Below, piece by piece: positions 7,250 through 11,459 of a DNA stretch of 33,935 nucleotides; the stretch's first letter is position 1, and the number at the start of each line of letters is the position of its first letter. A model generated the notes under the pieces. It was not told the origin of the DNA. It made no database searches and worked only from the letters and a program-made list of their open reading frames with translations. The DNA comes from Candidatus Rokuibacteriota bacterium (GTDB lineage: Bacteria > Methylomirabilota > Methylomirabilia > Rokubacteriales > CSP1-6). Both the position numbers and the translations under genes were made by a program. The stretch covers positions 1 to 33,935 of the forward strand of contig JACQWB010000278.1 of the NCBI GenBank assembly GCA_016209385.1, read 5' to 3'.

Positions 7250-10159
7250 CTACCCGTCCACGCCGTGGGGCGGCCGGCCCGGCGAGGCGTCCCGGGCCAC
7301 GGCGGCGACCTCCCCACCCGCGAGGAGCCCGCGCAGCTGCTCATCCGTATGGCGGGAGCAGAACTGGCGGAAGTTCTCTCCGTTGCTGCGATCGGCGAGG
7401 TATCTCCTCAGGAGCCGCTCGATGGCTTCGGGCACCTCGGTCGCGGAAACGCGGTAGCCCACCGGACGGGCCTTGGCCTGGTGCTTTCCCACGGCCCCGC
7501 CCACGCAGAAGTAGTAGGCGTCCGCCATCGTCCCTTCGACCTTCGTCTTCTTCCCCTCGATCCCGATGTCGGCGATCCAGTGCTGGCCGCAGCTGTTGGG
7601 GCAGCCGGTGACGTGGATCTTGACGTGCTGCTCGAAGCGCGGCATGCGTGTTTCCAGCTCCTCCACCAACCAGCGGGCGAACCCCTTGGTCTCCGTCAGT
7701 GCAAGCTTGCAGAACTCGGTGCCGGTGCAGGCGATGGTGCCCCGCCAGAACGGGGAGGCGCGAAGCCTCAACCCGGCCGTCTCGACCTCTTTCGCCAGGG
7801 CTTCCGTGTTTTGCGGGCGCACGTTGAGGATCAGCAGGTTCTGCATGGCGGTTGTGCGCAGCTCGCCGGTCCCGTAGCGGTCGGCCAGGTCGGCCACGAG
7901 CCTCATCTCGCCCGCGGTCATTCGGCCCCGGAGGACAGCGATGCCTGCATAGACGTAGCCGTCTTGCTTCTGAGGGTGGATCCCCACATGGTCGCGGTAG
8001 ACGTCGTCCGGCGGTTCCTCGGGAACGGCGGGGTCCAGGCGAAAGCCGATCCGCCGCTCCAGCTCCTCCTGAAAGCGCTCCACGGTCCAGCCGTGAGTGA
8101 GAAAGAGAAACTTGAGCCGCGCCTTCTCGCGGTCCTGCCGCAGGACATCGCTGTCGCTGAAGATCTGGGTGATGCCTTTGACGACGGGGAGGACCTCGTT
8201 CCAGTGGACGAAGACGTTCAGACGCAGGCCCAGGTGCGGGGTCGTCGAGAGCCCCCCGCCGACCCTGACCGAGAAGCCGATCTCGCCCGTCTCAGGATGC
8301 GTGATGGCGGTCATGCCGATGTCGTTGATCTCGGGGTAGGAGCACCAGACCCGGCAGCCGGTGATGGAGACCTTGTACTTGCGCGGGAGGTTGGAGAACT
8401 CGGGGTTGCCGTTCAGCATCCGGGTCGCCGCGTGGTTCAGCGGGGAAGCGTCCACGATCTCGTCGGCGTCCACGCCGGCCAGCGGGCAGCCGGTGATGTT
8501 GCGCGTGACGTCGCCGCAGGCCCCCATGGTGGTGATGCCGCACCGCCAGAGGCTCTGGAAGATCTCCGGGATCGCCTCGATCGGGACCCAGTGGAGCTGG
8601 ACATTCTGGCGGACGGTGAGGTCTCCGACCGCGCGCGCATGCTTCTCGGCGAGGTCGGCGATGCTGCGGAGCTGGTGAGAGAGGAGGAAGCCGTTCGGGA
8701 TGCGGATCCGCACCATGAAGTAGGGCACCGCCTTCCCCTCGCCGCCCTTGCCGCCGATCGCGCCGAGGCCGTCACCCTGGGTGTAGACCCCCCACGCGCG
8801 GAAATACGTGTTGAGCCACGCTGCCGGGATCGATTGATACCCCTCGCGAGCAAACCGGACGATCTCGTCGAAATGCTCCCAGGGGTTCAGCTCGCGCTTG
8901 AGGCGCTCGACCCTTTGCGCCTTCGTCTCTTTTACCGGAGCCTCTTTGACGGGCTCTGCCGGGGCGGCCGTGACCTCGGCCCCGCGCACCCAGTCTCGCA
9001 GGATCTCTGCGACCTCCGGGCGCGCAAGCTCCACGGGCAACGGCTCGCCCCGGCCCAGAAGCTCGCGCACCAGCGTCCCGCTCAAGGCCACCCGGTTCGA
9101 CGGGCCGTGAGGGCAGGTCTTCGGGGACGTGAGGGTCTCGCACCGGCGGCAGTAGAAGGTCTCGTCGAAGAAGAGGGGGACGATCCCCAGCTCCCCGGGG
9201 GCGAACTCCCGGAAGAGGTCGTCCACCGACACGCGGGACAACGCGGTCTCGATGCCCGTGTACTCGCGCCCCACGACGTAGTGGGTGCAGCCGTAGTTCT
9301 TCCGGACGAGGGCGTGGAAGAGCGTCTCCCGGGGACCGGCGTAGCGCATGGCGCCGGGAAACACCGCGAGGACGACCCGGTCCCTGGGGAAGTACTGCTC
9401 CACGAGGACCTGGTAGCAGCGGACGCGGACCTCCGAGGGAATCTCGTCGAGCTTCGACTTCCCCACCAGGGGGTGGATGAGGAGGCCGTCCAGGGGCTCG
9501 AGCGCGCACTTCTGGATGTACTCGTGGGCGCGGTGGACCGGGTGCTGGCTCTGGAATGCCACGACGGTTCGCCAGCCAAACTCACGGAACCGGGCCCGCG
9601 TCCCCGCCGGGTCCAGGCGGTAGGGCTCAAAGCCCTTCAGGGGCGGGCGGGCGATCAGGTCCACTGGTCCGGCGAGAAGCACGTTTCCGCGGGTGGTCTG
9701 ATACTCGACTCCGGGGTGGCCCGGGTCCTCGCTGCCGTACACGAGGCGGGTCTCTTCATGCCAGTCGTAGGGGAAGCGCTCTTCCACGTGGAGGATGCCG
9801 AGCAGCTCCTCCCAGGGGGCCACGAGAGCGACGTCCTCCCCTTCCTTCACGGCGTCGGCGGTTAGACGTCGAACCGCCAGAGTAATGGGGAGCGTCCAGG
9901 GTAGCCCGTTGGCCAGGCGCATCTCACCGAGGACGCTCCGGTAGTCGGCCTGGCCCATGAACCCCTCGAGCGGGCTGTAGGCGCCGACGGCCAGCAGTTC
10001 CAGGTCCGACATCGTCCGGGCGTTGAGGGCAATTGGCTTGAGGGAGGAGGCCCGCCGGCGGGCCTCCTCCAGGGCCTCCCCACGGAGGACCCGATCAACA
10101 AGCCTCCCGCCGTGGGGAGAAACCAGGTGAGTCGCAGAAACCTGGACTGTCTCGGTCAT
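7250..10159 (-). CDS. ATP sulfurylase fused to siroheme [4Fe-4S] sulfite/nitrite reductase
   Basis: A 969-residue fusion. Residues about 1-395 are a Sat-type ATP sulfurylase that makes APS from sulfate and ATP. It shows QSQHPVHRAHEY (203-214), IHPLVG, GPRETLFHALVRKNYGCTHY and a YCRRC...TCPHG zinc-type cluster. Residues about 396-415 form an Ala/Pro/Glu/Lys linker. The rest is a ferredoxin-type sulfite/nitrite reductase with the siroheme-[4Fe-4S] cysteines in CTGTEFC (811, 817) and TGCPNSCG (853, 857). The start at 10159 has GGGGGAAG upstream; an in-frame start at 10216 adds an unlikely 19 residues. Downstream genes make siroheme, its cofactor. Sulfite versus nitrite cannot be decided by eye, but fusion to Sat favours sulfite. 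The intermediate enzyme, APS reductase, is absent from the window. Confidence 0.9.
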   Translation of the reverse strand: MTETVQVSATHLVSPHGGRLVDRVLRGEALEEARRRASSLKPIALNARTMSDLELLAVGAYSPLEGFMGQADYRSVLGEMRLANGLPWTLPITLAVRRLTADAVKEGEDVALVAPWEELLGILHVEERFPYDWHEETRLVYGSEDPGHPGVEYQTTRGNVLLAGPVDLIARPPLKGFEPYRLDPAGTRARFREFGWRTVVAFQSQHPVHRAHEYIQKCALEPLDGLLIHPLVGKSKLDEIPSEVRVRCYQVLVEQYFPRDRVVLAVFPGAMRYAGPRETLFHALVRKNYGCTHYVVGREYTGIETALSRVSVDDLFREFAPGELGIVPLFFDETFYCRRCETLTSPKTCPHGPSNRVALSGTLVRELLGRGEPLPVELARPEVAEILRDWVRGAEVTAAPAEPVKEAPVKETKAQRVERLKRELNPWEHFDEIVRFAREGYQSIPAAWLNTYFRAWGVYTQGDGLGAIGGKGGEGKAVPYFMVRIRIPNGFLLSHQLRSIADLAEKHARAVGDLTVRQNVQLHWVPIEAIPEIFQSLWRCGITTMGACGDVTRNITGCPLAGVDADEIVDASPLNHAATRMLNGNPEFSNLPRKYKVSITGCRVWCSYPEINDIGMTAITHPETGEIGFSVRVGGGLSTTPHLGLRLNVFVHWNEVLPVVKGITQIFSDSDVLRQDREKARLKFLFLTHGWTVERFQEELERRIGFRLDPAVPEEPPDDVYRDHVGIHPQKQDGYVYAGIAVLRGRMTAGEMRLVADLADRYGTGELRTTAMQNLLILNVRPQNTEALAKEVETAGLRLRASPFWRGTIACTGTEFCKLALTETKGFARWLVEELETRMPRFEQHVKIHVTGCPNSCGQHWIADIGIEGKKTKVEGTMADAYYFCVGGAVGKHQAKARPVGYRVSATEVPEAIERLLRRYLADRSNGENFRQFCSRHTDEQLRGLLAGGEVAAVARDASPGRPPHGVDG

Positions 10160-10216: not shown

Positions 10217-10345
10217 GAAATAATTTTTACTAATGGGGCAAGGAGTTGCCCCGAGGGAGGCACGCCGGACCTGGCCGGCGTTGAAGCCTACCGAGGGGAT
10301 CCGGAAGGCATTCGCGGAAGGACGATGCGCTTTCCCGGAACTGCG

Positions 10346-10560
10346 CTATCCCTTCACCTGAGCCCAGCGGCTCACGAACTGCCCCGCGGCCCACACGCCG
10401 ACGGCGAACGTCCCGAAGGAGAAGATTCCCAGGGAGAACACACCGACCGAGAAGACCCCGACGGAGAAGAGGCCGGCGGAGAAGACCCCCGCTGAGAAGA
10501 GGCCGGCCGACAGGACCCCCGCGCTGAACAACCCAGCGGATAGCCAGCCAGCCGACATCC
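10346..10560 (-). repeat. 15-bp tandem repeat within the pentad protein
   Basis: The pentads are also visible in DNA as imperfect 15-bp units (GAGAAGA followed by CCCCSRCC-type blocks on the plus strand) from about 10365 to 10545. Units near the middle are most alike, suggesting expansion by slippage. Confidence 0.6.
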
Positions 10561-10663
10561 GGTCCTTGGGCGCTGCATTGGGGATTGGCGGGCCGACCAG
10601 CCCGATCAGGAGCAGAACCATCAGCACTCCCCAGATGATCAGATTAGCGACGCGACGGGTCAT
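10346..10663 (-). CDS. Small membrane protein with eleven S-x-G-x-F pentapeptide repeats
   Basis: A 105-residue protein. Residues about 6-24 form a hydrophobic, probably membrane-inserted segment (LIIWGVLMVLLLIGLVG). From about residue 37 the chain is tandem pentads such as SAGLF, SAGVL, SAGVF, SVGVF, SLGIF, SFGTF, AVGVW and AAGQF, eleven in a row, ending in a short basic tail. A five-residue period with small, Gly and large hydrophobic positions resembles the pentapeptide-repeat right-handed helix, but without its usual A(D/N)LXX code, so the fold is a guess. The ATG at 10663 has AAGGAGGATC upstream, a strong start. The gene stands alone, divergent from padR. No function can be assigned. Confidence 0.75.
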   Translation of the reverse strand: MTRRVANLIIWGVLMVLLLIGLVGPPIPNAAPKDRMSAGWLSAGLFSAGVLSAGLFSAGVFSAGLFSVGVFSVGVFSLGIFSFGTFAVGVWAAGQFVSRWAQVKG

Positions 10664-10839
10664 GGCTCGATCCTCCTTCAGCACCCTGCTAGAGGCCGAA
10701 CGTGTTCCGGGTGAAGGTCCCGTGAAAGCCGAACGGCACGTGGTGGCGGAGCGAGAGCACAGCGAGCGGACGAGCCGCAAGAGCCGTGGCGATCGCCGCG
10801 ACGCTTAAGAAATGTTCGCCGATCCTGCACCCTCACCAT

Positions 10840-10898: not shown

Positions 10899-11459
10899 AT
10901 GTCGTTGAAACTCGCGGTCTTAGGGCTCCTGGTGGACAGCCCCCGGACCGGCTATGACCTGAAGAAGCTCTTCGACGGGTCCGTCGGCTACTTCTGGCAG
11001 GCGAAATTCCAGCAGATCTACGGCGAGCTGCGGCAGCTCGAGGGCGAAGGGCTCGTCGAGAAGCGCGACGTTCCTCAGGTCGGCAGGCCAACGCGGAAGG
11101 TCTACTCGATCACCCAGACCGGCCGCGCGGCCCTCGACGCCTGGCTCGACACCCCGTCGCCGCTGAGCCCGGTCCGCGACGAGTTCCTCGTCAAGGTGTC
11201 CTCGTTCGGAAGGCTCCCCCCCGAGCGGGCCGTCGCCCGTCTCAGAGAGCACCGCCACCTCCATGAAGAGCGCCTTGCCACGTACCGGACGATCGAGTCG
11301 CGGCTCAAGGAGGCGGGCTGGATCTCGGAGGCCGGCGTGGCCGAGCCGCTGCTCGGCGGCTACCTCACGCTCAAGCGCGGGATCGCCTACGAGGAGGACA
11401 CGATCCGCTGGTGCGACTGGGCGATCGGCCTCCTCGAGCCGCGGCTGCCCATCGGCTAG
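10899..11459 (+). CDS. PadR-family transcriptional regulator
   Basis: A 186-residue winged-helix regulator of the long PadR subtype. The N-terminal domain (residues 1-80) opens LAVLGLLVDSPRTGYDLKKL, contains FWQAKFQQIYGELRQLEGEGLV and the wing GRPTRKVYSIT, then GRAALDAWL. The C-terminal half (about 95-180) is the helical dimerisation domain (VRDEFLVKVSSFGRL, LREHRHLHEERLATYRTIE). PadR proteins repress genes for stress responses or exporters and release DNA on binding small, often phenolic, ligands. The direct target is probably its own promoter (see the palindrome at 10840-10855); neighbouring candidates are the divergent pentad protein and the SBBP gene 210 nt downstream. The ATG at 10899 is preceded by AT-rich sequence with only a weak ribosome-binding site. 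Confidence 0.9.
   Translation: MSLKLAVLGLLVDSPRTGYDLKKLFDGSVGYFWQAKFQQIYGELRQLEGEGLVEKRDVPQVGRPTRKVYSITQTGRAALDAWLDTPSPLSPVRDEFLVKVSSFGRLPPERAVARLREHRHLHEERLATYRTIESRLKEAGWISEAGVAEPLLGGYLTLKRGIAYEEDTIRWCDWAIGLLEPRLPIG

Follow-up and report, generated by a model that had tools for sequence, protein, structure and literature searches.

A small Rokubacteriales protein with a hydrophobic helix and twelve apolar glycine pentads

Pentapeptide-repeat proteins consist of tandem A(D/N)LXX pentads folded as a right-handed quadrilateral beta-helix. Two published accounts define them by a canonical consensus over at least eight contiguous pentads (PMC8145042, PMC7337050). Forms linked to transmembrane (TM) segments are already in print: HglK combines four predicted TM regions with 36 AXLXX repeats (PMC8145042), and TM-linked pentapeptide proteins of Bacteroidetes accompany a Min-Wnt domain and glycosyl hydrolases (PMC12419801). 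HAAS-pentapeptide proteins are likewise in print: Ravi et al. 2024 name pentapeptide repeats as one kind of intracellular domain that occurs joined to HAAS. They propose that HAAS relays signals of membrane-linked or intracellular origin to PadR, and that the HAAS-PadR pair signals stress of the membrane or within the cell (PMC11237479).

Here we describe a gene in a 33,935-nucleotide stretch (the window) of a Candidatus Rokuibacteriota genome (4.57 Mb in 310 contigs; contig JACQWB010000278.1). Like HglK and, by their published description, the Bacteroidetes proteins, its product joins a membrane segment to five-residue repeats. It shares apolar [A/S]-x-G-x-x pentads, in the same Ser-Gly phase, with HAAS-pentapeptide proteins encoded beside PadR, but has its own N-terminal helix and lacks HAAS (no Pfam match at E ≤ 1). 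It appears to be an unusual variant of five-residue-repeat proteins already described, and not an entirely new kind. A literature search, mostly of journals outside subscription, returned no paper for the pentad motif by name, for the GLTT repeat or for pentapeptide repeats in Rokubacteria.

The pentad gene and its orthologue

The gene encodes a 105-aa protein that starts at ATG. As the original prediction held, the ORF is present and the product has a single hydrophobic helix beside the pentads (Table 1).

Table 1. Features of the pentad gene and of neighbouring genes in the window
Feature	Coordinates	Strand	Description and basis
Pentad protein gene	10346..10663	-	105 codons + stop; ORF and translation, same-length orthologue with dN/dS about 0.4
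Ribosome-binding site AAGGAGG	10672..10678	-	8 bases 5' of ATG; sequence; AAGGAGG precedes the orthologue's ATG as well
Hydrophobic helix, about residues 7-24	10592..10645	-	preceded by Arg3-Arg4; hydropathy; helix 2-23 in both AlphaFold models
Pro-rich linker, residues 25-36	10556..10591	-	PPxPNxxP common to the orthologue; alignment
Twelve pentads [S/A]-x-G-x-[F/L/W], residues 37-96	10376..10555	-	pentad count; also a tandem repeat at the DNA level
Short C-terminal tail with Arg and Lys, residues 97-105	10349..10375	-	translation
PadR regulator with Vir_act_alpha_C domain	10899..11459	+	divergent, 235 bases from the pentad gene; Pfam PadR 59.5 bits, Vir_act_alpha_C 85 bits, both above cut-off
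Fused ATP-sulfurylase + ferredoxin-type sulfite/nitrite reductase, one ORF	7250-10159	-	same strand, 186 bases downstream of the pentad gene
Surface-protein-like ORF, 1145 aa	11670-15107	+	DUF7948, SBBP beta-propeller repeats; PKD-like domain just below cut-off

The repeat reads, in order, SAGWL, SAGLF, SAGVL, SAGLF, SAGVF, SAGLF, SVGVF, SVGVF, SLGIF, SFGTF, AVGVW and AAGQF. The run is unbroken, as had been noted from the sequence, but it comprises twelve pentads rather than the eleven counted there, and the strict form S-x-G-x-F is found in only 8 of the 12; all of them fit [S/A]-x-G-x-[F/L/W] consecutively. In 100,000 shuffles of the protein's residues, the longest pentad run was 4, reached once. 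Identity autocorrelation within the repeat was 34/55 at lag 5 and 34/50 at lag 10, with values of 0–4 at lags 1–4 and 6–9. A glycine zipper has the pattern GxxxG, with a spacing of four. With a period of five, and identity of 2/56 at lag 4 against the value at lag 5, the glycine-zipper-like oligomer that had been suggested is rejected.

The repeat is strongly apolar. All but one of its 60 residues are other than D, E, K, R, H, N or Q, and residues 36–94 form 59 consecutive positions without any of these. Polar or charged residues thus make up 2% of it, within the range from 0% (the orthologue) to 14% seen in the other 15 rows of our alignment of pentad proteins, versus 45% in one classical pentapeptide protein of the same phylum.

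A 15-bp DNA repeat was detected by Tandem Repeats Finder, in line with the original prediction, but it is degenerate. Mean DNA identity between units is 60% (11 of the 12 units), and mismatches are distributed over the codon positions as 98/69/162. The pentad repeat is therefore maintained at the protein level, with no fresh DNA expansion, and recent slippage is unlikely given the low identity between units. The suggested variation in copy number finds no support, the one orthologue having the same length and the same register.

That orthologue, in another family of the same order (genome G037), emerged from protein searches that covered 60 relatives and 95 phylum genomes. It is identical to the window protein at 58/105 residues (55%), has equal length and carries the repeat in register. 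Of its 12 pentads, ten match [S/A]-x-G-x-[F/L/W]; the exceptions are the first, GTGWL, and the second, SVSPV, where the glycine has been lost. Differences between the two genes fall on the codon positions as 37/24/55, with dN 0.38 and dS 0.93 over the whole gene and dN 0.29 and dS 0.84 from residue 37 to the end (dN/dS ~0.35–0.41).

Could the ORF be a chance open frame, or the antisense of a low-complexity repeat gene? The in-phase antisense frame is likewise open across most of the pentad region, and antisense readings of other repeat genes produced false matches in our searches (L003, L004). Against this, the antisense frame in the window offers no start codon (ATG, GTG or TTG) before 10566, and a same-length orthologue, the skewed codon-position differences, dN/dS of about 0.4 and a strong ribosome-binding site on both genes together argue that the pentad ORF is a real gene, which makes a spurious frame very improbable.

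By sequence search, the gene is rare and patchy across the phylum. The pentad protein matched in 4/95 phylum genomes; two of these matches were read as antisense of other repeat genes, and it was therefore accepted in 2/95. Among the 60 relatives, 3 matched and 2 were accepted. A two-row profile of the window protein and its orthologue matched in 6/94 phylum genomes, of which 2 were accepted; its matches in G019 and G052 belong to other pentad classes (L013, L014). A contig scan matched at least 591 stretches, with 4 accepted among the matches listed. No match was found to the pentad protein by tblastn against plasmids, in the viral contigs searched, in PHROGs (both orthologues) or among PDB sequences. 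NCBIfam gave nothing for the window protein at E ≤ 1; for ten pentad proteins it gave no match at E ≤ 0.1 in eight and only a match below cut-off in two.

The search matches include other glycine repeats. L013, from the window's own phylum, has pentads and no visible membrane helix. L014:1408-1722 (+), from the same phylum, encodes a 104-aa protein in which AVGAFAIGALAIG-type pentads lead into a charged part, representing another glycine-pentad class. The query also matched L003:1303-1827 (-), where glycine pentads arise from the antisense reading of a classical A(D/N)LXX pentapeptide-repeat gene. L003/L012 (G055) was rejected on this ground from the reading frames, as were L004/L011 (G085), antisense to a repeat tail, and L006, L007, L022/L024/L040 and L031, readings of other repeat genes on another strand or in another frame. 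Antisense glycine pentads of A(D/N)LXX genes are a trap for six-frame searches with such repeats.

Distant apolar pentad proteins

Similar pentads were found in the phylum of a Clostridia record. Of 299 genomes searched there at E ≤ 1e-8, 3 matched; G095 and G189 were accepted and G259 was not. The G189 protein (L021) has 100 aa, with an N-terminal hydrophobic helix followed by pentads; among 199 relatives of G189 searched at E ≤ 1e-6, 3 matched, the anchored type being present in G189 itself only. A six-sequence profile searched against 319 genomes of this phylum at E ≤ 1e-5 matched 18 genomes in 24 rows. Inspected by eye, 11 rows from 11 genomes are genuine apolar glycine pentad proteins (L032, L033, L034, L035, L037, L038, L039, L041, L042, L043, L044), one is a probable fragment (L053) and 12 are antisense, off-type or, as with L046/L052 and L048, unclear (L036, L040, L045-L052, L054, L055). 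In the phylum of an actinobacterial record, 3/396 genomes matched at E ≤ 1e-8 and 2 were accepted; L029 and L030, from that phylum, have pentads and no visible membrane helix.

A PadR gene, in every case above the Pfam cut-off, lies directly upstream in 7 of the 11 genuine cases (L032, L035, L038, L039, L042, L043, L044). HAAS precedes the pentads above cut-off in four of these seven (L032, L035, L038, L043) and below it in L039, and was not found by Pfam in L042 and L044. Among the remaining four, L033 (the L005 locus) carries a fusion to HTH_3 and L034 (the L021 locus) belongs to the anchored type; neither is seen in L037 or L041.

In a 16-row alignment, eight glycine columns are invariant. 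A profile from 13 relatives, excluding the window protein, the orthologue and L021, scores these three at 64.1, 63.3 and 85.8 bits uncorrected and at 44.2, 49.8 and 51.0 bits corrected, the best of 4,000 shuffles reaching 23.5 bits uncorrected; this test is not independent, because the relatives were found with window-derived queries and aligned together with the window protein. We also scored the 120 within-pentad permutations of the residues with this profile. The 30 that keep the Ser-to-Gly phase score 49.5–79.2 bits (average 62.6), whereas the 90 that break it average 19.5–28.0 by phase (maximum 48.8). Since phase-keeping permutations outscore those of the other three phases, the Ser-Gly phase is common to the window protein and the distant apolar pentads. 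Counting the natural order itself, 16 of the 120 equal or exceed the score of the natural protein, so the score owes little to where exactly the bulky residues stand. From this comparison, a shared ancestry of the window protein and the HAAS-type pentads is no more than plausible.

Fold and possible role

We tentatively propose, with slightly less than even confidence, that the pentad protein is a membrane-anchored, apolar pentad beta-solenoid of the cell envelope, with fold, topology and role all inferred. The N-terminal helix would anchor it in the membrane, the N-terminus being probably inside because Arg-Arg precedes the helix. The Pro-rich linker would lead into the 12 pentads, wound as a short beta-solenoid; if each coil takes four pentads, the number in pentapeptide-repeat proteins, there would be about three coils. 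Gly (i-2) and Phe/Leu (i) would face inward, and Ser and the aliphatic residues outward. Because all but one of the repeat residues are apolar in the above sense, the solenoid is expected to rest on the bilayer or within it, or to pack with its own copies through its apolar surface. By analogy with the apolar pentads behind HAAS/PadR in Clostridia, the role is most likely that of a structural or sensory envelope element, which might serve as a scaffold or sense the state of the membrane.

The C-terminal tails of the window protein, the orthologue and L021 carry Arg and Lys, which would also fit both ends being inside, with the repeat dipping into or crossing the bilayer. It is quite unlikely, though conceivable, that the protein represents a membrane-embedded pentad beta-solenoid, apolar on the outside all round, neither helix bundle nor beta-barrel, minimal at 105 residues and elsewhere fused to HAAS/HTH regulators as a membrane-state sensor.

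The compact beta-helix considered in the original prediction is favoured by hydropathy and by one of two structure models, but the other model is helical and no convincing solved match was obtained. Hydropathy power in the window repeat is 57.9 at 144 degrees versus 0.5 at the alpha-helical 100 degrees (orthologue, 51.9 and 1.4). The AlphaFold outcome depends on the alignment. With the 2 orthologous sequences, the model has helices at 2–23 and 44–104 (mean pLDDT 71.4, pTM 0.35); with 16 rows, it has a helix at 2–23 and strands across 36–99 (mean pLDDT 75.3, pTM 0.53; all five models 71–75), a result of middling confidence that depends on remote relatives retrieved by the same query. The 16-row model has pLDDT 84–88 over residues 41–80 and places a continuous 28-residue strand at 46–73, followed by strands of 3–4 residues about five apart. 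Foldseek against the PDB returned no solved structure at E ≤ 0.001; its three rows include no pentapeptide protein, and the first is a YadA-like head at E 5.5 (VIA Z 7.2, rmsd 6.0, within the range the tool calls common). A viral structure library gave 43 rows at E ≤ 10 and none at E ≤ 0.001, and for the 2-row helical model Foldseek offered no chain for comparison.

These results bear on two other explanations of the repeat. The pentads might be transmembrane alpha-helices, giving a small multi-helix or self-packing membrane protein in which Gly and Ser serve packing. The 2-row model, whose helix at 44–104 has a mean pLDDT of 88–89 over residues 71–90, points this way, as does the 59-residue apolar run, and the positive C-terminal tails are compatible with both ends inside. 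Yet the hydropathy lacks alpha periodicity, a strict period of five with Gly in 12/12 pentads is unexpected for membrane helices, the 60 residues exceed one crossing with no polar loop to interrupt them, and the 16 sequences yield a beta model; we consider helices doubtful. The protein could instead be a truly diverged classical pentapeptide-repeat protein, a right-handed quadrilateral beta-helix whose polar surface became apolar by adaptation to the membrane. Its 12 contiguous pentads exceed the eight of the definition, position i being bulky and position i-2 small, and in the frame G-x-F-S-x position i (L/F) fits the consensus in 10/11 pentads tested and i+1 in 9/11. TM-linked pentapeptide proteins are also on record, as described for HglK and in PMC12419801. 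However, Gly at i-2 and the aliphatic residues at i-1 and i+2 are off consensus, and of 11 pentads tested (of 12) none, in any of five frames, fits the consensus of Vetting 2006/Zhang 2019 at all five positions; the orthologue behaves the same. The classical pentapeptide Pfam model was not matched, the only Pfam pentapeptide match at E ≤ 1 being Pentapeptide_2 at 13.9 bits (orthologue 14.6; cut-off 26.4), and the three Foldseek rows, all above E 0.001, include no pentapeptide structure. Such an origin is, in our judgement, unlikely, and the assignment to a known pentapeptide-repeat family that would have overturned the original prediction was not obtained.

The remaining candidate family is GLTT (PF01744). 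It is defined by xGLTT and built on nematode proteins. The likeness lies in the pentad G-L-x-x-x; the name-giving Thr-Thr is missing, residues 37–96 containing one Thr in all. The Pfam model scores the window protein at 23.1 bits, just above the cut-off of 21, and the orthologue at 18.9, below it. Of 14 pentad proteins scanned with it, four exceed the cut-off (the window protein, L005, L008 and L032), and searching the genomes G000 and G037 with the model gave nothing at E ≤ 0.001. As the pentapeptide consensus fits 0/11 pentads and GLTT is passed narrowly here and missed by the orthologue, we file the protein under neither family; its architecture probably works like that of a pentapeptide-repeat protein. 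The view that no family could be named thus needs qualifying by the GLTT score and by the similar HAAS/PadR-side pentads in print (PMC11237479), while the orthologue's score agrees with it.

If the repeat is a solenoid at or in the membrane, pentapeptide-repeat architecture would extend into the bilayer, and this protein of 105 residues would offer a convenient minimal model of the HAAS-side pentad domains of envelope-stress regulators. If it is helical, only the odd repeat would set the protein apart from other small membrane proteins.

Neighbouring genes

The divergent PadR gene is a possible partner of the pentad gene, but is not conserved with it. The window PadR had no match at E ≤ 1e-30 in the orthologue's genome and matched in 3/30 genomes at this threshold. 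It differs from the PadR of the HAAS-PadR dyad in its divergent orientation, its Vir_act_alpha_C domain and this lack of conservation with the pentad protein.

On the other side, the fused sulfur gene is followed by siroheme-synthase-like genes. It has near full-length, one-frame matches in G007 (81%) and G014 (80%); of the other genomes with a match among the 30 searched, most show separate matches to the two halves or a match to a single half. No pentad ORF of at least 60 codons lies in the 1.5 kb before the fused gene of G007 and G014, and the pentad protein was not matched in either genome in the protein search of 60 relatives. The neighbours of the orthologue in G037 are different, with NADH dehydrogenase subunit-like genes, read by eye, starting about 2.2 kb downstream. 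The neighbourhood therefore reveals no partner for the protein.

A scan for regulatory sites found one promoter-like site on the other strand (0.2 expected) and one terminator-like site within the downstream gene (1.2 expected); no promoter-like site was found for the orthologue. Only short inverted repeats lie between the pentad gene and PadR, and none could be assigned as an operator. Between the pentad gene and the sulfur gene, a perfect 7-bp inverted repeat, GGGGCAA/TTGCCCC, was seen by eye at 10234-10251. It is followed on the minus strand by an A/T-rich stretch and a TTGACT, and the promoter/terminator scan did not list it.
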